Shown here one piece after another: positions 14,265 through 24,610 of a stretch of 33,975 nt of DNA (the first letter of the stretch is position 1; every line of letters starts with the position of its first letter). This DNA is from a virus. The position numbers and the translations under genes are program-made. The stretch is taken from positions 1 through 33,975 of IMG/VR virus record IMGVR_UViG_3300022920_000389; one strand, given 5' to 3'. The notes below the pieces were generated by a model. That model had not been told where the DNA came from. It saw nothing but the letters and a program-made list of their open reading frames with translations, and made no database searches.

Positions 14265-14588
14265 ATGTACACACTAAAATCAAAAATGTCTTCACTTCTA
14301 TCTGCAGAACAGACTTGGGAAGACACATCAGCATGGGAAGCAGCTCACAGCATTTCATGTGACGCAATTGTTGCAGAAGTACCAGGACTAACAAGTGTAG
14401 TTCTAGAACTTCAAGCAGATAAACGTTCAGTAATTCGTACACTAACATATGATGATGTTGATGCACGTAATTCACATTTCTTTAATGATGACATGCCAAC
14501 GCTACGTAAGCCTGGTCTGTTTGCAGTAGAATTTATTGAAGAATCAGAAGAGACACCGCCAAAGCCAGAAGGTTGGTTCGAAAATTAA
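14265..14588 (+). CDS. Hypothetical protein, 107 aa, with strong ribosome site
   Basis: An AAAGGAGGT Shine-Dalgarno sequence nine bases upstream is one of the strongest in the window, so high expression is likely. The protein has a helical N-terminal half and beta-like segments in the second half, and an acidic, Pro-rich tail (Glu-Glu-Thr-Pro-Pro-Lys-Pro). It stands alone between a terminator and the convergent minus-strand operon; the stop codons of the two face each other and overlap by four bases at 14585-14588. Family not recognised. Confidence 0.7.
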   Translation: MYTLKSKMSSLLSAEQTWEDTSAWEAAHSISCDAIVAEVPGLTSVVLELQADKRSVIRTLTYDDVDARNSHFFNDDMPTLRKPGLFAVEFIEESEETPPKPEGWFEN

Positions 14589-15211
14589 TAAAAATTGAAA
14601 GCCCAGTGCTTTTCACGACACCACCAACAGTCCTCACAAGGACGTGGTGGTGTTTCACTTTCACAGCTTATAGTTAAAGCTGCCAAGTCCATAATATCAT
14701 ATTGCTGATATAGTTCAGCTACTTTTTTCTTAGTATGATTTACAAATGGCTGATAATGATATACAACCTTTCCATTTATTACCATACTTTTTGTTTTTTC
14801 CTCGCCTGGGGTATCACGAGTAAAATCTCTGTCGTCAGTTAACAAATTTTTAACATCTTGTGGGTTAGCAGTCATGCCACTAAACAATCCATCTATATTA
14901 TATTTTTCTACTAATGCACGAGTAATGTTACCACGTCTTGTTCTTGCATCAGCTCTGTCTTCATAACGAGTAATTTTGTGTTCTATAATTCTGTTGGGAA
15001 ATAAATCTTCAAACTTTTCTCTAATACCATTAACATATTCTAAGTTATAATAGTTGAGGTGTTTGTGAGTTGCAGTACTAAGTACTACCTTGCTATTGGG
15101 CAATTCTTTAAGAATCATGTAGGTTAATAGAAAACTATCCAACCCACCACTTAATGTACTTAGGTACACTTTATGGTCTGGAACGCACGAAACGCCTAGA
15201 AACGTTTCCAT
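14585..15211 (-). CDS. PP-loop ATP pyrophosphatase, QueC-like
   Basis: Ser-Gly-Gly-Leu-Asp-Ser at residues 21-26 is the SGGxDS pyrophosphate-binding loop of N-type ATP pyrophosphatases, which adenylate a substrate before amidation or thiolation. The C-terminus has Cys-x8-Cys-x2-Cys-x2-Cys followed by Arg-x-Lys-His-Trp-Ala-Phe, matching the zinc-binding end of QueC (7-cyano-7-deazaguanine synthase). At 208 residues it is near QueC length. No queD, queE or folE is seen nearby, so it may use host precursor or act on a different substrate. AGGA lies upstream of the ATG. It is the last gene of the minus-strand operon and overlaps the previous gene by 16 bases. Confidence 0.75.
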   Translation of the reverse strand: METFLGVSCVPDHKVYLSTLSGGLDSFLLTYMILKELPNSKVVLSTATHKHLNYYNLEYVNGIREKFEDLFPNRIIEHKITRYEDRADARTRRGNITRALVEKYNIDGLFSGMTANPQDVKNLLTDDRDFTRDTPGEEKTKSMVINGKVVYHYQPFVNHTKKKVAELYQQYDIMDLAALTISCESETPPRPCEDCWWCREKHWAFNFY

Positions 15212-16323
15212 AGTGATTTCCTACTGTTTTCGCCCATAGAAATAAGGGCTTTGGAAACACTGATTCCATTAAATTCATTTTTGCAATGGTCATTGCCATA
15301 TACCGCTAAATCTGGATTATACGTATTTAAAGTGTTCACGAAGAGCCTGGAATTTTCAAAGCTCTGATCACTAGTTTTCATAATGTTAGCAGGCAATCTT
15401 TTTAACGCACCATTCCACCAAAAAGCACCATTGCCGTTAAGTTTAAGCTTTTTGAGAGTTTTGTTCAATAAGTCGTTATCGCTAAAGTTAACATGATTAA
15501 ATGTATGCTTGCATTGCTGGTATTTTTGCCAATGCTCAATCCATCCTTCATCACCAAAAGTTTCAATAACATGATCCCAACACCTACGTGCTGCTTTGTG
15601 ATGACTATGAAGTCTATTTTTTCCATTATACAATTCAAGCATTGGAAACTTTTCATAAATGTGATCCATCCAAGCATAGTAATCATGCCCGTCCCAATTC
15701 TTAATTGTATACTCTCTAACATACAAGCTCATAGGACTGACATCCATATGATGTATGCGAGTTTTCTTGTCAAATGTACTAAGGTTTAAAACGTAGTTGA
15801 TATAAAATCCACTACTTACAGTCATTGCAAAATCTAAATGATCGTGTAGCTTTTCTGGTTTTGGTATTTCATTATGAATAATGTAACTAATATTACTGTT
15901 ATGTGTTAATGTTGCCATTACTCCACTATGTGTAAGTGCAAACGTATCGTCATTAGTTGCATCAATAAATGGATAATGTCTGTCTAATTGAATTTTTGCT
16001 TCGCCAGTTTTTCCTGGTTTGACAACTGCAATATTTTCATTGTCAAAGCTAATAAGTCCAGCGTCACATTCTTCAACTTGTTTTCGTACACTACTTTCCC
16101 AATAGCTATATTCAAATACGATACCAGGATTTAAGATAATAAGATATTCATAATTTTCCATTGGTATTTTTCGATAGTCATCAGTTTCATAAAATGAGTA
16201 ATCACTATCTCCCACACGGTCAGCCATACAATAATCAAAATTTAACTGAGTGTAATTTTTAGCTACATCGTATTTCCAGCTATGTTGTCTTTGTGGATCT
16301 ATTAATAATACAACTGCCTTCAT
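15196..16323 (-). CDS. Unknown 375-residue protein in accessory operon
   Basis: Starts in an ATGA overlap with the upstream sulfotransferase-like gene. The first ~110 residues look alpha/beta (an N-terminal Lys-Ala-Val-Val-Leu-Leu-Ile-Asp strand, and later Tyr-Leu-Ile-Ile-Leu-Asn-Pro-Gly), in the manner of nucleotide-sugar-binding folds, but no DxD motif is obvious. The middle is His-rich (His-His, His-Ser-His-His). No transmembrane segment. A glycosyltransferase-like role would fit the operon, but this is a guess; treat as unknown. Confidence 0.7.
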   Translation of the reverse strand: MKAVVLLIDPQRQHSWKYDVAKNYTQLNFDYCMADRVGDSDYSFYETDDYRKIPMENYEYLIILNPGIVFEYSYWESSVRKQVEECDAGLISFDNENIAVVKPGKTGEAKIQLDRHYPFIDATNDDTFALTHSGVMATLTHNSNISYIIHNEIPKPEKLHDHLDFAMTVSSGFYINYVLNLSTFDKKTRIHHMDVSPMSLYVREYTIKNWDGHDYYAWMDHIYEKFPMLELYNGKNRLHSHHKAARRCWDHVIETFGDEGWIEHWQKYQQCKHTFNHVNFSDNDLLNKTLKKLKLNGNGAFWWNGALKRLPANIMKTSDQSFENSRLFVNTLNTYNPDLAVYGNDHCKNEFNGISVSKALISMGENSRKSLWKRF

Positions 16324-17051
16324 AGGAATTTTCCATCTATATCTTGGAAGTTGTAATATGCAAGACTAGTGTCGTATGTCATATCTCGCTCTGGTTGTTT
16401 CTTATTTGTCATATAACCCTCAATACTTCTTATATTTTTAAATTCTTTGCTACCTGGTACTAGCGGATCAATATCCCAATATTCTGCCCAGTGTCTCTGA
16501 GTAGCAATATGTATATTCAATTGCTTTTTAAATATCCAGCTTCTAGCATCTTTAACTTCGTCTTCAATTTTATCACGCATAGTTGGTTCATCAATGTAGT
16601 GATCAGCGTATGTTGGATATGTAATATTAAATCCACCTGCACCAAACCATCCTTTATAACAACTTTCTACTGGACGGAAAACAATCATAATTTTACTCTT
16701 GGGAAAGTTTTCAGCAATCCAATCCAAGTTGTTACTAATAACATGGCTCTTTACAATACGATATTCATCTGGACGTTCTTCAGTCCATGCACTAGTTATT
16801 TCTTGCAAAACTTCTTCACGTGATAACGTATGCATCTGATGCCAGTTATGACCTAACTCCATTCCAGGACCAAAGTATGTGCCTAAATGTTGTTGACTGT
16901 TAAACTTAGTTGGATGTGTATACACACGATCTTCTGTTCTGTCTGAGGTATTAACTTTAATCTTGGGGCTTAGGCTAAGTGCATTACTCACAGCACTCCA
17001 CTTGCTACCTGGAGCACCAGTAAAAAATATAATCTTACTTTCATCAATCAC
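16320..17051 (-). CDS. Sulfotransferase-like P-loop protein (copy 1)
   Basis: The N-terminus Ile-Ile-Phe-Phe-Thr-Gly-Ala-Pro-Gly-Ser-Lys-Trp-Ser resembles the 5'-phosphosulfate-binding loop of PAPS-dependent sulfotransferases, and Ile-Met-Ile-Val-Phe-Arg-Pro-Val-Glu-Ser-Cys-Tyr (about residues 125-136) resembles the 3'-phosphate-binding strand and helix. 243 residues, short for the family but normal for phage and bacterial versions. The start is GTG at 17051, chosen because AAAGGA lies eight bases upstream and no ATG is available before the P-loop. It overlaps the second copy by eight bases. It may transfer a sulfo group to a carbohydrate, lipid or peptide; the acceptor is unknown. Confidence 0.65.
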   Translation of the reverse strand: MIDESKIIFFTGAPGSKWSAVSNALSLSPKIKVNTSDRTEDRVYTHPTKFNSQQHLGTYFGPGMELGHNWHQMHTLSREEVLQEITSAWTEERPDEYRIVKSHVISNNLDWIAENFPKSKIMIVFRPVESCYKGWFGAGGFNITYPTYADHYIDEPTMRDKIEDEVKDARSWIFKKQLNIHIATQRHWAEYWDIDPLVPGSKEFKNIRSIEGYMTNKKQPERDMTYDTSLAYYNFQDIDGKFL

Positions 17052-17781
17052 GTAAAAATTCCTTTATTGCTTTGTAGTCTTTTTTACCAACTGTTAGAAT
17101 GTTATTGTGGTTGGTATATGTTCTTCTTTGTTGTATGCGTTCGTCAATCATGTTAACAACATACTGTTGATAATTCATTGCATATGTTGGATGGTACGAA
17201 TCATCAAATGTATCATAACACCATAGATCTCTAACTGTAAATCCTTTTCCAAAATCTGCAGCTACACTAGCAAGTTTTTTACCATATGAAGTATTTTCTC
17301 CATCTAACCATGTGCATTTTAAGTATGCTGGAAACAAACTAGTGGTTTCCATATATCTAACAGCAACTTGCAATGGATCGTCAATTATATTTAGCACCCT
17401 TGCATTAGGAAATCTTTCAGTTATTTCATGCGGCATTGCATGTGTACAATACACCAGGTGTTGTGTTTTTAATATCTCATGCCCGCCCATGCGTTCAAAT
17501 TGTGGATTAAAATATTGTGTATAATATTCGTCAGCGTCTGGTATAAAATCTTTTACATAGTCATGAGTTGGTGGTAACATTCCCTTAGGTACAAGTCTAT
17601 CAAAATGCCAACGACTTACTTTACGTTGCATAATTGATGTTTCTGTAAAATGCACATTCCAAGGATTAATGCCATTGTTGATATTACTATACCAATATAC
17701 GTTAGGCATTGCGGCTAACAGTCTGCCTAATTTGTGACCACCGCCACCATTTTCAAAACTTACAAATATAATATTATGCAT
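17044..17781 (-). CDS. Sulfotransferase-like P-loop protein (copy 2)
   Basis: The ATG at 17781 is preferred over the one at 17814 because GGGAAG lies just before it and the protein then begins directly with the first beta strand (His-Asn-Ile-Ile-Phe-Val-Ser-Phe-Glu-Asn-Gly-Gly-Gly-Gly-His-Lys), a Gly-rich phosphate-binding loop. A second element, Ala-Arg-Val-Leu-Asn-Ile-Ile-Asp-Asp-Pro, sits where the 3'-phosphate-binding segment is expected. The overall pattern parallels copy 1 but the sequences are diverged. Overlaps the adenylation-domain gene by eight bases. Confidence 0.55.
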   Translation of the reverse strand: MHNIIFVSFENGGGGHKLGRLLAAMPNVYWYSNINNGINPWNVHFTETSIMQRKVSRWHFDRLVPKGMLPPTHDYVKDFIPDADEYYTQYFNPQFERMGGHEILKTQHLVYCTHAMPHEITERFPNARVLNIIDDPLQVAVRYMETTSLFPAYLKCTWLDGENTSYGKKLASVAADFGKGFTVRDLWCYDTFDDSYHPTYAMNYQQYVVNMIDERIQQRRTYTNHNNILTVGKKDYKAIKEFLRD

Positions 17782-18487
17782 TATTTCTTCCCATGTAATA
17801 GAAGTGGCCAGCACTATTTAATTTTACACGATCTCCAGTAAGAGCCCAACCGTCGTGTACACATATGTCTCCTTTGACATATAATTGATCGTCTACAATT
17901 TTTGTATCGCAATATGTATTAATACCCATAATACTATGGCCTTTTAAATTCCATTCTTGATAGTAACATACATCATCCATATTACGAAACTTAACATTAA
18001 TAGCACATGGGCCACATTCAGTCATTCCCCAGTTTGCCATAAACGTAGCACCACGGATAACAAATGCTTCAATAATATCCCATGTTACAGGATCACTACC
18101 ACATGTTACCCATACATTGGATAAATCTAATGTTCGAAACCCTTTTGTTCCCATAATAGCCTTTGCATGACTTGGAGTAATATGCGTATGTGTATAGTTT
18201 CCAACTTCTTTAACAAACCTATATGCATTGAAATCTTCAATAACAACATCAGCACCAATACTCAGTGCTGGTAATGTCTGTGCTAAAAGTCCGCCAGCAT
18301 GCTTAGTTTTACATACTGTATAAACACGACTACTTGATGTTAACTGTTGACAATCAACAGCAATTTTATTCGCTGCGGTTAGTTTTGTTGGACTTTGATA
18401 TATAGCTTTGGAAGGGCCAGTTGTTCCTGATGTCTGTAGTGTTGTCCCCTGACTGATTATTGCCAGAAGATCTGCTTGGTTGTTCAT
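17774..18487 (-). CDS. Minimal ANL-superfamily adenylation domain (acyl/aryl-AMP ligase-like)
   Basis: Three core motifs of adenylate-forming enzymes are clear: Thr-Ser-Gly-Thr-Thr-Gly-Pro-Ser-Lys at residues 19-27 (ATP phosphate loop), Asn-Trp-Gly-Met-Thr-Glu at 152-157 (adenine/substrate motif), and Leu-Thr-Gly-Asp-Arg at 216-220 with Tyr-Met-Gly-Arg at 231-234. The protein is only 237 residues: it begins at the phosphate loop and ends at the hinge, so the usual N-terminal part and the whole C-terminal lid, with its catalytic Lys, are missing. AGGAAAG lies upstream of the ATG, supporting this start even though the gene overlaps the previous one by 122 bases. It probably activates a small carboxylate as AMP ester; substrate unknown. 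Confidence 0.8.
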   Translation of the reverse strand: MNNQADLLAIISQGTTLQTSGTTGPSKAIYQSPTKLTAANKIAVDCQQLTSSSRVYTVCKTKHAGGLLAQTLPALSIGADVVIEDFNAYRFVKEVGNYTHTHITPSHAKAIMGTKGFRTLDLSNVWVTCGSDPVTWDIIEAFVIRGATFMANWGMTECGPCAINVKFRNMDDVCYYQEWNLKGHSIMGINTYCDTKIVDDQLYVKGDICVHDGWALTGDRVKLNSAGHFYYMGRNNA

Positions 18488-18773
18488 TTAATTCTTTCCT
18501 AAGATCTTCCCATATTGGATGTTGTGGTAAAAATTTATATAATCCACGAGTTTGATTGACTACTATTTCTAATAACTTAAAGTTGAATAAGAATGGCAAA
18601 AATGCATGTATAACACTTGCGCCTGCCATTAACAATTGTTTTACCGCCTCACGTAAACTGATACGCATATGTATAAAATAGTTAACAATTCCACTTTTAG
18701 GATTGCCACCATTTAACCGTTCAGCAACTCTCAGGTGATTCCAGTTGAACCATCCTGCTAATTTAATTTTCAT
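18366..18773 (-). CDS. DUF6356-like membrane-associated protein, 135 aa
   Basis: Residues ~20-70 (Tyr-Phe-Ile-His-Met-Arg ... Leu-Arg-Glu-Ala ... Gly-Ala-Ser-Val-Ile-His-Ala-Phe-Leu-Pro-Phe-Leu-Phe) match the pattern I recall for DUF6356: a His near the start, an amphipathic helix, and a hydrophobic helix with Ile-His-Ala-Phe. One membrane-inserting segment is likely. The last ~45 residues are polar and low-complexity, and their codons overlap the following adenylation gene out of frame. Starts in an ATGA overlap with the upstream gene. Function of the family is unknown. Confidence 0.65.
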   Translation of the reverse strand: MKIKLAGWFNWNHLRVAERLNGGNPKSGIVNYFIHMRISLREAVKQLLMAGASVIHAFLPFLFNFKLLEIVVNQTRGLYKFLPQHPIWEDLRKELNEQPSRSSGNNQSGDNTTDIRNNWPFQSYISKSNKTNRSE

Positions 18774-19309
18774 ATTGCTTCTCCGTCTCTAGTCTCATAA
18801 TACTTTGGTATGTTTAGTTTCCATACAGCCTGGGGAACATTATATAATTCTTCTTCACCAATGTAATCAAACACACCTAGTTTACTTAAAATATCAACAC
18901 TACGATGCGCTCTATTCATACGCCCACTACGATCTAATGTATCATATGGACTTGTGGTTACATAAACTGGATGTGGGCTATTTCTATTAGCCCATTGTAC
19001 TTGCAAATCAAGATGATCGTTATGTACATAGTTCTGCTTCTGATATTTATTCATTCCTTTGAACTGTCTTATTTCAGTTTGAGCACCGCGAAATAATCCA
19101 CGATATCCATCTTTAAATGGATGTACGCCACTTAATGCTACCATGCGATCCTGATTAAATGTAGCAACCCACATGCCGCCAGTATCAATGCACCAATCAA
19201 ATTTTAATGCCTTGAGGTTACAATTATTGTTAAATCCACGGTTATCACATTCACGCATGAATAGTTCAAGACTGCGTGAGTTTGTCAGAATTCTTTTAGT
19301 TGTTATCAT
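18770..19309 (-). CDS. GNAT-like protein, first gene of minus-strand operon
   Basis: About 180 residues, mixed alpha/beta. A central stretch (Met-Trp-Val-Ala-Thr-Phe ... Arg-Met-Val-Ala-Leu-Ser-Gly-Val-His-Pro-Phe, then Arg-Gly-Leu-Phe-Arg-Gly-Ala) resembles strands of GNAT acyltransferases, but the acyl-CoA loop is not clear, so the family call is tentative. Starts are possible at 19315, 19309 or further in. The -10 box at 19316-19321 puts the likely transcription start near 19309, so the ATG at 19309 is shown; it would be leaderless or nearly so. The stop overlaps the next gene by ATGA. Confidence 0.55.
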   Translation of the reverse strand: MITTKRILTNSRSLELFMRECDNRGFNNNCNLKALKFDWCIDTGGMWVATFNQDRMVALSGVHPFKDGYRGLFRGAQTEIRQFKGMNKYQKQNYVHNDHLDLQVQWANRNSPHPVYVTTSPYDTLDRSGRMNRAHRSVDILSKLGVFDYIGEEELYNVPQAVWKLNIPKYYETRDGEAI

Positions 19310-19315
19310 AAGCAT

Positions 19316-19343
19316 ATTATAACATTTATTAGCGGTAAGTCAA
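19316..19343 (-). promoter_or_regulatory. Strong sigma70-like promoter of minus-strand operon
   Basis: On the minus strand: TTGACT (19343-19338), a 16-base spacer, then an exact TATAAT (19321-19316). It faces away from a plus-strand promoter 35 bases further along, forming a divergent control region. Confidence 0.75.
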
Positions 19344-20107: not shown

Positions 20108-20896
20108 TTACCCACCAATAAGTTTATCGTAGCCATTACACGCTAAATCGTGCTTCGATTCATTAAAATCATCCAAAACAATCATATGTAAACGATCCTG
20201 ATCTGTGTCATTGTATACACAATGCAATCTTGCGACATCCATAAAGCGAATATCTCCAACTTCCCAAGGAACCGTTCCTGCTTTTTCTTGCGCAAATAAA
20301 CAATTGCTAGGATTTGTTAATGCTATATTATATGACATTAACCGCCAAATGCCTTTTCCAGTATCGCTATGTATGCCAATCCAACCTCCAGGACGTAATA
20401 ACATAAATCTTATACGATTTAATCTATCTGAAGATGGCCAAACATCTTTAAACCATTCTGTTGTCCGTGGGCAAAATTCAGCAAGCTCTGTCCAACTATG
20501 TCTCTGTTCTACACCAGGATAATATCTGGGATTGTCAGTATACATAGATCCAGAACCAGGTTCGCCTTGTGCATGTAGCGCCATACTAAACCAATTTGGA
20601 TGTCCATCATGGCGATGTTTTATAAAATATTCACTAGCATTATATGCCTCATCAACCATGTCTTGAACTGGTAAGTTAGGAAGATCAAACTTTAAAGTTG
20701 GTGCACCTGATTTATCACTAATCCAATTGGCATATTGATCCCTTATATCTTCATCGTCTTGCCAGTTATCAAATTTTGTAGGCTTGGGTTGTATAAACTC
20801 ATAATGCTTGTACTGTTGTGATTCATTTATAAAATATTTGATGGTTTCTATATCGTTGATATTGTTATCATTATATTCCATACAGATATTTATCAT
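20108..20896 (-). CDS. Aspartyl/asparaginyl hydroxylase-like 2OG-Fe(II) oxygenase
   Basis: 262 residues with the iron and 2-oxoglutarate signature in a double-stranded beta-helix: His-Ser-Asp (H176, D178) within Gly-Trp-Ile-Gly-Ile-His-Ser-Asp-Thr-Gly, distal His 225 (Arg-Leu-His-Cys-Val) and Arg 235 ten residues later (Asp-Arg-Leu-His-Met). The spacing and the segment Gly-Asp-Ile-Arg-Phe before the distal His fit the Asp/Asn beta-hydroxylase (PF05118) group, which hydroxylates protein or small-molecule substrates. The ATG may be at 20896 or 20881; the late-promoter-like element on this strand lies right beside both. It sits alone between two tRNA groups. Substrate unknown. Confidence 0.8.
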   Translation of the reverse strand: MINICMEYNDNNINDIETIKYFINESQQYKHYEFIQPKPTKFDNWQDDEDIRDQYANWISDKSGAPTLKFDLPNLPVQDMVDEAYNASEYFIKHRHDGHPNWFSMALHAQGEPGSGSMYTDNPRYYPGVEQRHSWTELAEFCPRTTEWFKDVWPSSDRLNRIRFMLLRPGGWIGIHSDTGKGIWRLMSYNIALTNPSNCLFAQEKAGTVPWEVGDIRFMDVARLHCVYNDTDQDRLHMIVLDDFNESKHDLACNGYDKLIGG

Positions 20897-21440: not shown

Positions 21441-21796
21441 TGGGAATTAAATCAGGAAAGATTTGGGGCAATACTGAACTAATCCATGCCAATGGTGCTC
21501 TTGAGTTTCACCGCATTGAGTTTAATAAAGGATTCAAATGTAGTGAACATGAACATCAATTTAAATGGAACGGTTTTTATGTTGAAAGCGGCCGCATGCT
21601 CATTAGAGTGTGGCAAGATGATCAAGGACTGGTTGATGAGACTATTCTTGAAACTGGAGACTTTACACAAGTAAAGCCTGGCAAAATTCATCAATTTGAA
21701 GGTTTAGAAGATGGCGTAGCATTTGAACTATACTGGGCCGAATTTAATCACGATGATATTGTCAGACGAACTAGTGGCACTAAAATTAAAAAATGA
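21440..21796 (+). CDS. Cupin-domain protein, 118 aa
   Basis: A single small beta-barrel with the two cupin motifs: His-x-His at residues 37 and 39 followed by Glu 49, and Gly-Asp-Phe-Thr-Gln-Val-Lys-Pro-Gly-Lys-Ile-His with His 84. These supply a metal site (3 His + Glu). Single-domain cupins of this size are isomerases, dioxygenases or ligand-binding proteins; which one cannot be told. It lies in a tight run before the split radical SAM genes and overlaps the next start by ATGA, suggesting a shared pathway. Confidence 0.8.
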   Translation: MGIKSGKIWGNTELIHANGALEFHRIEFNKGFKCSEHEHQFKWNGFYVESGRMLIRVWQDDQGLVDETILETGDFTQVKPGKIHQFEGLEDGVAFELYWAEFNHDDIVRRTSGTKIKK

Positions 21797-22422
21797 ATTT
21801 CAACCGTGTAGTAGAATTTGGTATTACAAATCACTGCCAAGCTAAGTGTCCAGCCTGTGCTAGAACAGGACTGGACTTTACTCTTGAGCATATGAACGTA
21901 AAAACATTCGAAAAAGCTATACAACACCAACCATTACAAGATACATTAATAAGGCTTTGTGGTGAGATTGGCGATGCAATGATGCACCCTGACATAGAAC
22001 AGTTTGTAGAGATAGCACTTGCCAGAACTAAAAAAGTAACTATCAGCACAAACGGCGGATTGCGTAATCCTGAGTGGTATACTTATATGGGCCAAAAGTT
22101 TGGCGATCGTTTAGCTATTATTTTTGGTATAGATGGTACTGATTCTGAAACTAACAACATGTATCGAATAGGTGTAGACTACGAACGTGCAATGGATAAT
22201 ATGAAAGCATACGCAGATAGTCCAGGAAAAGCAGTATGGCAATTTATTGTGTTTGTACATAATATGCATCAGCTATCTGAAAGTAAATTGATGGCTACAC
22301 AGATAGGCGCCAAGCATTTGTTTTTAATTAATAGAGACAAATTTAACGGATTATCTGACAAGCAAGAACAACGAGTGTTAGAACAATATGAAGCAGACAA
22401 GCCTTTGTGGAGACTAAAATGA
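21793..22422 (+). CDS. Radical SAM enzyme core domain (split protein, N-terminal half)
   Basis: Cys15-x3-Cys19-x2-Cys22 (Asn-His-Cys-Gln-Ala-Lys-Cys-Pro-Ala-Cys) is the radical SAM [4Fe-4S] site. Further core features follow: Cys-Gly-Glu-Ile-Gly-Asp (GGE-like), Ile-Ser-Thr-Asn-Gly-Gly, and Phe-Gly-Ile-Asp-Gly. The protein stops at 209 residues without an auxiliary-cluster domain; that domain is encoded in the next gene, in the -1 frame, across an ATGA overlap. Compared with the 354-residue homologue at 23546, the two pieces together equal one enzyme. Likely uses S-adenosylmethionine to make a 5'-deoxyadenosyl radical and modify a substrate, possibly a peptide. Confidence 0.85.
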   Translation: MNFNRVVEFGITNHCQAKCPACARTGLDFTLEHMNVKTFEKAIQHQPLQDTLIRLCGEIGDAMMHPDIEQFVEIALARTKKVTISTNGGLRNPEWYTYMGQKFGDRLAIIFGIDGTDSETNNMYRIGVDYERAMDNMKAYADSPGKAVWQFIVFVHNMHQLSESKLMATQIGAKHLFLINRDKFNGLSDKQEQRVLEQYEADKPLWRLK

Positions 22423-22775: not shown

Positions 22776-23546
22776 TTGGCTATTAACAAAGAAAAAGTAA
22801 TTAGCGTAGAGCATTACACACCAGAACTATTTCATTTTACAGTATCAAGAGACCCAGGGTTACGTTTTCGTGATGGGGAATTTGTTATGATGGGTATTAC
22901 TAATCCTGATACAGGTAAACCATTGATGCGAGCATATAGTATTGCAAGTCCAAATCATCAGGACACAATGGAATTTTATTCGATTAAAGTACAAGATGGT
23001 CCACTAACAAGTAAATTGCAACACATTGTAGAAGGCGACGAAGTATTAGTTAACACAAAATCAGTTGGTACATTGGTACTAGATAATTTACGTGACGGAC
23101 GCAATCTTTATTTCCTAGCAACAGGTACAGGTGTTGCTCCATTTATTGGATTAACTCGTGGTATTGAAACATATGAAAATTTTGATAATGTAGTTTTAGC
23201 CTGGGGAGCAAGAACCGCAAGTGAACTTCCGTTTGCTGACTTTTTTGAGAACCTTAATGAACATGAAATTTATGGTGAATTAACAGAAGGCAAGTTTAAA
23301 TTTTATCCTACAGTAACCCGCGAGCCTTATCGCAATCAAGGACGTATTACAACAGCATTATTCGAAGGACGCATAAGTGAGCAGTTGGGCCTAGATAAAC
23401 TTGATCCAGAACATGATCGTATTATGATCTGCGGAAGTATCCCATTTAATAGTGACTTACAACAGTGGCTAGATGCAAATGGCTTCACTGAAGGAAGTGC
23501 AAACTGCAAAGGCGAATATGTGGTAGAGCGAGCTTTTGTAAGCTAA
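22776..23546 (+). CDS. fpr: Ferredoxin/flavodoxin-NADP+ reductase
   Basis: 256 residues with the FAD motif Arg-Ala-Tyr-Ser (52-55), Gly-Pro-Leu-Thr-Ser (FAD phosphate contact, 75-79), the NADP-binding Gly-Thr-Gly-Val-Ala-Pro-Phe (117-123), a Cys-Gly-Ser nucleotide motif, and the C-terminal Tyr-Val-Val-Glu-Arg-Ala-Phe-Val-Ser typical of the bacterial Fpr subclass. It moves electrons between NADPH and ferredoxin or flavodoxin. The start is TTG at 22776, with GGAG six bases upstream; no ATG precedes the domain. Flanked by radical SAM genes on both sides, it is well placed to supply the electron that reduces their clusters. No ferredoxin gene is seen in the window. Confidence 0.92.
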   Translation: MAINKEKVISVEHYTPELFHFTVSRDPGLRFRDGEFVMMGITNPDTGKPLMRAYSIASPNHQDTMEFYSIKVQDGPLTSKLQHIVEGDEVLVNTKSVGTLVLDNLRDGRNLYFLATGTGVAPFIGLTRGIETYENFDNVVLAWGARTASELPFADFFENLNEHEIYGELTEGKFKFYPTVTREPYRNQGRITTALFEGRISEQLGLDKLDPEHDRIMICGSIPFNSDLQQWLDANGFTEGSANCKGEYVVERAFVS

Positions 23547-24610
23547 TGGCAATTTATGATCGCATATCACACGTTGAGTTTGAACTAAACACGATATGTC
23601 AAAGTTATTGTCCAATTTGTATCAGGTACACTGCGGTAGGCGTAGTTAATGCTGAAACTGGTAAAAAAGAAGATCAGTTATTCTTAAATCCCAATGCTAG
23701 ATTAAATGAAGTACTAGATTTCGAATTAATTGAAAAAATATTTAGCGATCCATTGATAGCAGACCGTGTTAGGGTAGACATGATTGGTACTGCTGGTGAA
23801 CCAGTAGCACACCCACGTTTCTTAGAAATTGTAAAAAAGATAATTGAATTAAAGCCCAACGCTAATTTTAATATACATACCAATGGCGGCGTTAGAAACG
23901 AAAAGTTCTTTACTGCATTAGGAGAAATACTACCTAGTGGTAGTAGAGTATGCTTTAGTTTAGATGGTCTAGAAGATACAAATCATATATACAGAATTAA
24001 CGTTGATTGGAACAAATGCATCAAAAACTTAAAGGCATTTATTGCTACAGGCGCCCGTGCTACATGGCAAATGGTATTGTTTGATTGGAATAAACACCAA
24101 TTGGATGATGTAAGAAACTATGCTATTGAGCTTGGTTGTGATGAATTTGAAACAAGAGAAAATGTAGATGCTGAAGGTATTCAAAAAGCATTAGATGCAG
24201 CTACAACAAAAATTAATAATATCCCTGCGCCATCAAAGACAACTAACAAACCATATCCAACTGCTCCAATAGTTGACATAATTGATGATCAATGCTTTAG
24301 TAAGCGTAACATATTTGTTAGTAGCAATGGCAAGGTATACCCATGTTGTATGTTTCCTGCAGCTAGCTTTGATAAAGTGTTCAAGAAGTTTTTTCATGAA
24401 GCTATGGAAATAGATACATATGGAGATGAATGGAACGATCTAAAGAATCATACTGTAACTGAGATTATGGAACATCAATGGTGGATAGATCTAAAGAAAC
24501 AAATTAACATGGAAATAGATCCTTGTTTTATTTGTAAGCATGAATGTGGATCTAGTGATGAATGGAATGCTCATGCAGATATCAACGAAAAATCATATCA
24601 ACTCAAGTAA
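23546..24610 (+). CDS. Radical SAM/SPASM-like enzyme, full length
   Basis: 354 residues. Cys18-x3-Cys22-x2-Cys25 in Thr-Ile-Cys-Gln-Ser-Tyr-Cys-Pro-Ile-Cys binds the catalytic [4Fe-4S] cluster. Gly-Thr-Ala-Gly-Glu-Pro (GGEP-like), Ile-His-Thr-Asn-Gly-Gly and Phe-Ser-Leu-Asp-Gly follow in the expected order. The C-terminal region has Ser-Asn-Gly-Lys-Val-Tyr-Pro-Cys-Cys (C267, C268) and Cys327-x2-Cys330-x3-Cys334, an auxiliary-cluster domain of SPASM type. Such enzymes mostly modify peptides or small molecules. Start overlaps the reductase stop (TAATG). Substrate unknown; no obvious precursor peptide found next to it. Confidence 0.88.
   Translation: MAIYDRISHVEFELNTICQSYCPICIRYTAVGVVNAETGKKEDQLFLNPNARLNEVLDFELIEKIFSDPLIADRVRVDMIGTAGEPVAHPRFLEIVKKIIELKPNANFNIHTNGGVRNEKFFTALGEILPSGSRVCFSLDGLEDTNHIYRINVDWNKCIKNLKAFIATGARATWQMVLFDWNKHQLDDVRNYAIELGCDEFETRENVDAEGIQKALDAATTKINNIPAPSKTTNKPYPTAPIVDIIDDQCFSKRNIFVSSNGKVYPCCMFPAASFDKVFKKFFHEAMEIDTYGDEWNDLKNHTVTEIMEHQWWIDLKKQINMEIDPCFICKHECGSSDEWNAHADINEKSYQLK

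Follow-up and report, generated by a model that had tools for sequence, protein, structure and literature searches.

A recurrent gene cassette of uncultivated, mainly marine phages pairs a lid-less ANL domain with a GNAT-fold protein and may serve acyl transfer

Gene content and layout of the cassette

The IMG/VR virus record IMGVR_UViG_3300022920_000389, the full 33,975 bases of which are referred to here as the window, contains a cassette of seven overlapping open reading frames (orfs) on the minus strand, running from position 19315 down to 14585 between two tRNA clusters. An earlier note on this DNA had described the seven genes as a single co-directional unit behind one TTGACT-N16-TATAAT promoter, overlapping at every junction and pointing away from nearly all other genes. 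This description is borne out: the orfs and the promoter sequence (19343-19316) were found, the six junctions from gene 1 to gene 7 overlap by 4, 122, 41, 8, 4 and 16 nucleotides, and the exception to the opposite orientation is a nearby gene for an AspH-like hydroxylase. The features are as follows.

19316-19343, minus strand: predicted promoter TTGACT-N16-TATAAT with extended -10, sigma-70-type, 11 of 12 consensus positions matched
18770-19309 (orf can begin at 19315), minus strand: gene 1, GNAT-fold protein of 179 amino acids (AlphaFold model and structure matches)
18366-18773, minus strand: gene 2, DUF6356 protein (PF19883, E 1.7e-6, 28.5 bits against a cut-off of 24.4)
17774-18487, minus strand: gene 3, mini-ANL protein of 237 amino acids with motifs A3-A8 only (PF00501 match)
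17044-17781 (orf can begin at 17814), minus strand: gene 4 (STA), sulfotransferase-like P-loop protein (alignments, weak Pfam matches)
16320-17051, minus strand: gene 5 (STB), sulfotransferase-like protein (TGAPGSKW 5′ loop, R126 region)
15196-16323, minus strand: gene 6, putative two-domain protein (predicted structure)
14585-15211, minus strand: gene 7, QueC-family PP-loop protein (PF06508, E 4.7e-6, above cut-off)
20108-20896, minus strand: AspH-like hydroxylase gene, near the cassette

Two of the overlaps are in part effects of annotation. The 122-nucleotide overlap of genes 2 and 3 stems from an unconserved tail of 38 amino acids on gene 2 (18366-18483) that is absent in relatives, and the 41-nucleotide overlap at the start of gene 4 falls to 8 nucleotides if translation begins at 17781, the start used by relatives. 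Since relatives start there, 19309 for gene 1 (its second ATG, giving 179 amino acids) and 17781 for gene 4 are most likely the true starts. The G+C content of the cassette (35%) is near that of the rest of the contig (37%) and therefore gives no sign of recent import.

Conservation of the cassette

Scans of IMG/VR viral sequences with gene 1 and gene 3 yielded 170 GNAT and 193 ANL stretches; the counts given here rest on the best 80 of each, which reduce to 59 distinct GNATs and 58 distinct ANLs. The 59 GNATs were collected with gene 1 alone as the query, and 54 of them have an ANL gene within 2.5 kb, on the same strand in 53 cases. Around the 58 distinct ANLs, the partners recognised are GNAT (42), gene 4 (36), gene 2 (23), gene 5 (19), gene 7 (3) and gene 6 (2), numbers that are depressed by contig ends cutting through loci. 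The order GNAT, DUF6356, ANL, gene 4, gene 5, gene 6, gene 7 recurs on other contigs. Sequence distances among the ANLs correlate with those of their GNAT (r 0.68), gene 4 (r 0.60) and gene 2 (r 0.47) partners, with 0 of 2000 permutations in each case, and gene 5 distances correlate too; part of this co-variation may come from shared phage ancestry. Fusions of gene 4 with gene 1 occur in three contigs:

L024:5254-6495
L025:5269-6522
L027:5209-6486

The core of the cassette comprises GNAT, DUF6356, ANL and gene 4, which are co-conserved, collinear, co-varying and partly fused in three contigs; genes 5-7 are a looser extension, frequently missing from loci that have the core. For the core, synteny, fusions and co-variation led to rejection of the idea that the genes hitchhike independently; this does not extend to genes 5-7. 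The earlier note had named independent occurrence of the genes in related phages as one observation that would speak against its reading; the core contradicts it by keeping its synteny in other uncultivated phages, most of which are marine, and genes 5-7 are looser. The T4-type capsid protein gp23 is encoded in 8 of the 24 carrying contigs tested, so at least some carriers are T4-like.

A consistently lid-less ANL domain

Gene 3 matches PF00501 with an E-value of 2.6e-16 and 59.8 bits (gathering score 29.9) over profile positions 170-375 of 384, and its profile matches acyl-CoA synthetases among the entries of the PDB, so that its proposed membership of the ANL family is supported. The N-terminal subdomain is absent. 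All 104 unique relatives stop at most 18 amino acids past the A8 arginine; therefore, the C-terminal lid and the A10 lysine are never present among them. The nucleotide-binding residues are kept: of the 104 relatives, 103 retain the A5 glutamate, about 101 the A7 aspartate and 97 the A8 arginine, and in one subgroup the P-loop reads TSGSTDxPK. Judged by its sequence, gene 3 is best recorded as an ANL core domain and not as an acyl-CoA synthetase; with the lid missing, ordinary adenylation and thioesterification cannot be assumed. A lid supplied in trans was considered and rejected, PF13193 (AMP-binding_C) being found in just 4 of the 24 carrying contigs, within separate orfs of 456-470 amino acids.

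Longer ANL paralogues of about 341-361 amino acids stand directly upstream of the GNAT gene in five loci; they are also lid-less, and their P-loops are broken:

L002:8176-9201
L004:8176-9204
L017:8173-9198
L026:4965-6011
L082:4880-5965

The GNAT-fold protein and its DUF6356 partner

The window's gene 1 has no Pfam match. Its AlphaFold (AF2) model, with a predicted local distance difference test (pLDDT) score of 89.9, has a GNAT fold (Foldseek E 2.9e-6 against the PDB and VIA Z 13.1, both to GNATs), as the earlier note had suspected. The Q/RxxGxG/A loop that binds the pyrophosphate of coenzyme A (CoA) is absent from all 31 aligned members (residues about 80-98), in which a GLxKYHMxS-type loop stands at that position; H65, R72 and R76 are strictly conserved. 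On the strength of the model, gene 1 is assigned to the GNAT fold only, and its role as an acyltransferase is a prediction. Acetyltransferases of protein N-termini and of ribosomal proteins are among the nearest folds.

In gene 2, about 97 residues are conserved in the alignment, and hydropathy shows a single hydrophobic helix among them; the protein is probably a one-helix membrane protein.

Two sulfotransferase-like proteins

The resemblance of genes 4 and 5 to sulfotransferases, also proposed earlier, is retained in a weaker form. Among gene 4 members, 3 of 26 match Sulfotransfer_3 (best E 6.4e-5, in a relative), and among gene 5 members 10 of 16 do (best E 2.6e-4, in a relative); all of these matches are below the cut-off, and gene 5 of the window reaches 15.7 bits against a sulfotransferase Pfam cut-off of 27. 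Profile searches of solved structures with genes 4 and 5 gave no credible match. The two proteins may thus be called weakly sulfotransferase-like.

Gene 6 and the QueC-family protein

The AF2 model of gene 6 (pLDDT 85) suggests two domains: residues 2-135 resemble nucleotidyl- or glycosyltransferases (VIA Z 8.2 to CobY) and residues 145-358 resemble Rossmann methyltransferases with a degenerate glycine motif (VIA Z about 9 to NNMT and 11.1 to 6ulo). This reading, which comes from VIA-align, is of moderate strength; Foldseek with the whole model gave low TM-scores, and a profile search of solved structures returned nothing credible. Structural relatives were found among proteins of uncultured Caudovirales.

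The PF06508 match supports the earlier identification of gene 7 as a QueC-like PP-loop protein. It has the SGGLDS motif, an intact zinc motif (C183-x8-C192-x2-C195-x2-C198) and PF-x4-K161, and its profile matches Cap9 (2.5e-5), QueC (4.2e-5) and QatC (0.37). Direct reading of the sequence with the published motif definitions for QueC and Cap9, which include the PF-x4-K reported for Cap9 (PMC13329287), showed that the QueC substrate motifs YxQxHxxE, VPxRN and YPDC are absent; deazaguanine chemistry is therefore not implied.

This bears on the suggestion of the earlier note that the cassette may build a modified group or attach it to a nucleoside, lipid or surface sugar; of these, modification of a nucleoside or DNA now appears improbable. 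Membership of gene 7 in the QueC family and the presence of a QueD-type 6-pyruvoyl-tetrahydropterin synthase (PTPS) in 11 of the 24 tested contigs are consistent with it, yet no canonical QueC turned up in these contigs, the only matches being weak ones to its C-terminal zinc region, and on this ground a deazaguanine pathway was rejected. Moreover, gene 7 is rare (3 of 58 ANL loci), the contigs that carry it often have no PTPS, though contigs are fragments, and the combination of ANL with DUF6356 is a poor fit to nucleoside chemistry.

Alternatively, gene 7 might act like Cap9 or QatC by adding a group to the N-terminus of a protein, in which case the cassette would serve defence or counter-defence. 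Among solved structures, the gene 7 profile matches Cap9 best and QatC more weakly, and gene 7 shares with Cap9 the zinc motif and PF-x4-K. The other substrate motifs of Cap9 are missing, however, the window has no recognised partner of the CD-NTase, QatB or Cap10 type, and gene 7 has a peripheral position relative to the core, all of which makes protein conjugation of this kind very improbable.

A promoter predicted to start transcription at the first codon

The predicted transcription start coincides with the ATG at 19309, and the message is accordingly predicted to be leaderless. Promoter-like sites as such occur across the region at chance level (29 observed versus 28.2 expected); of the stricter pattern TTGA-N18-20-TATA[AT]T-N5-7-ATG, the window has a single copy versus 0.15 expected from shuffles. 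In the relatives, it precedes 12 of 375 cassette orfs versus 8 of 1730 other orfs (Fisher p = 2.8e-5), a p-value that is optimistic because related sequences are not independent; through a duplicate locus the copy in the window was counted among the others, which biases against enrichment. The TATAAT-N5-7-ATG layout precedes the first gene of the cassette, whichever gene is first, in the window and 12 relatives: before GNAT in the window, L003, L151, L154 and L168, before gene 4 in L005, L084, L089, L173 and L178, before ANL in L016 and L165, and before the fusion of genes 4 and 1 in L024.

Surroundings of the cassette

The other genes of the window include those for a class I ribonucleotide reductase, PAAR and tape-measure-like tail proteins, a ClpP-like head protease and 11 tRNAs. 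Near the cassette lie genes for two radical SAM proteins and a ferredoxin-NADP reductase-like protein (21793-22422, 22776-23546, 23546-24610), and reductase-like and radical SAM genes are also near the cassette in L003, L009 and L011. Genes that read as flavin-dependent halogenase-like by their sequence (for example L099:6431-7537) were found near ANL in 21 of 96 loci, within 1.5 kb in 19 of them.

Another possibility is that the GNAT, with an acid activated by ANL and with tailoring enzymes, modifies the structural proteins or glycans of the phage, for instance the tail fibre. A tail-fibre-like gene lies within 4 kb in 24 of 96 loci, AspH-like, methyltransferase and halogenase-like genes are near the cassette in part of the family, and the closest folds of gene 1 include acetyltransferases that act on proteins. 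This reading is nevertheless unlikely: the cassette is differently located in different phages and in the window stands between tRNA gene clusters, GNAT fold matches do not predict the substrate, and DUF6356 points to the membrane, not to the virion.

Distribution beyond IMG/VR

In bacterial and archaeal genomes, a scan found just three loci, two in Methylophilaceae and one in TMED23. The two marine Methylophilaceae have a DUF6356-ANL pair amid ordinary chromosomal genes (L114:9778-10699 and L115:847-1768); a Rhodospirillaceae metagenome-assembled genome has ANL without these. A host origin of the cassette was rejected, given that there are only these three bacterial loci, that 299 genomes of one phylum gave no match apart from the source genome itself, and that a search for GNAT in the three, run with no positive control, found none.

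When 50,697 phage records were searched by tblastn, genes 1, 3, 4, 6 and 7 had no match (gene 2 was not among the queries) and gene 5 matched nothing but a marine single-cell virus, and that weakly. The contrast between 170 to 190 stretches in IMG/VR and hardly any in these records indicates a recurrent gene set of ocean viruses beyond the cultured phages. A literature search on DUF6356, lid-less ANL proteins and phage acyl-CoA synthetases or GNATs, covering few subscription journals, found no description, in keeping with the earlier note, which knew of no described phage system of this content. The protein families are known; the papers searched gave no account of their combination, of an ANL that consistently lacks its lid or of a leaderless autonomous layout.

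Proposed function

The core genes very probably act as one functional unit. What that unit does can be proposed only tentatively: the cassette may be a transcriptionally autonomous phage unit for acyl activation and acyl transfer. Acyl activation and transfer, located at a membrane, would best account for the conserved juxtaposition of an acid-activating core and an acyl-transfer fold, along with a fusion partner and a small protein of membrane type. The mini-ANL would bind ATP and a carboxylic acid and form or hold an acyl-adenylate; the GNAT-fold protein, its CoA loop lost, would accept the activated acyl group and pass it to an amine; gene 2 would anchor the complex at the membrane; and gene 4, which some phages have as a fusion with the acyltransferase, would work on the same substrate. 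Genes 5-7 would be optional tailoring enzymes, contributing a second sulfotransferase-like activity, nucleotidyl- or glycosyltransferase-like and methyltransferase-like activities, and QueC-like ATP-dependent amide or ligase chemistry. Transfer from acyl-adenylate to amine is a possible chemistry, put forward with as much reserve as the function itself, and the product would most likely be an amine, lipid or protein bearing an acyl group, with an effect on the infected cell or on the virion.

Several observations weigh against acyl activation and transfer. ANL enzymes without the lid lysine adenylate poorly in known systems, so gene 3 may only bind and not activate its ligand. The paralogues that adjoin GNAT in the five loci listed above have broken P-loops, 13 of the 58 phage ANLs have no recognised partners, and no GNAT relative was found in the three ANL-carrying bacterial genomes by a search that had no positive control. 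No carrier-protein gene was seen within the cassette; PF00550 scored above its cut-off in 7 of 24 contigs, but not near the cassette where positions were compared, and a carrier protein in the cassette was rejected as a candidate. Genes 4 and 5 both remain under Pfam cut-offs, and loss of the QxxGxG loop in gene 1 is no proof of independence from CoA.

Either the missing lid and the missing CoA loop are complementary, allowing direct hand-over of the acyl group, or one or both of the proteins are non-catalytic. In the latter case, the ANL and GNAT scaffolds might bind a ligand, as a sensor or inhibitor, with no catalysis. Absence of the lid from all ANL relatives and of the canonical CoA loop from all aligned GNATs, together with the broken P-loops of the longer ANL paralogues, would suit such a cassette; H65, R72 and R76 of the GNAT are strictly conserved, as are the P-loop and the glutamate, aspartate and arginine of the ANL site, which argues for retained chemistry and leaves a purely binding role quite unlikely. 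In the former case, acyl activation and transfer could take a specific and rather speculative form, in which the lid-less ANL and a CoA-independent GNAT constitute a split, membrane-tethered acyltransferase that passes acyl-adenylates straight to an accepting amine, tailoring being done by the sulfotransferase-like and QueC-like proteins. If true, phages would have a route of acyl transfer that has not been described in them, and both the lid of ANL and the usual CoA site would be dispensable.

Comparison with known systems

With the ANL acyl-CoA synthetases (MenE, FadD, 4-coumarate and feruloyl-CoA ligases), gene 3 shares PF00501, the A3 P-loop, the A5 glutamate, the A7 aspartate and the A8 arginine; it differs from them in its length of about 237 amino acids, with neither the N-terminal subdomain nor the C-terminal lid and A10 lysine. 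Gene 1 has the same fold as the GNAT acyltransferases PA3270 (1yre), HP0935, RimI and Naa10 (Z 11-13), but at 8-16% identity and with the canonical CoA loop missing from the 31 aligned members.

Gene 5 has in common with Sulfotransfer_3, of the 3′-phosphoadenosine 5′-phosphosulfate (PAPS) sulfotransferase superfamily, the TGAPGSKW-type 5′ loop and an arginine-containing 3′ region, with weak Pfam matches; genes 4 and 5 depart from this family in scoring below its cut-off, in having no credible solved-structure match and in not conserving the 3′ serine. Within the QueC family, which comprises QueC, Cap9 of type IV CBASS (cyclic oligonucleotide-based antiphage signalling system) and QatC, gene 7 shares the SGGxDS loop, the C-x8-CxxCxxC zinc motif and PF-x4-K, whereas it lacks YxQxHxxE, VPxRN and YPDC and has different gene neighbours. 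DUF6356 (PF19883) consists of small bacterial proteins of unknown function, which gene 2 matches above the Pfam cut-off; compared with the others, gene 2 is extended at both ends and is paired with ANL.

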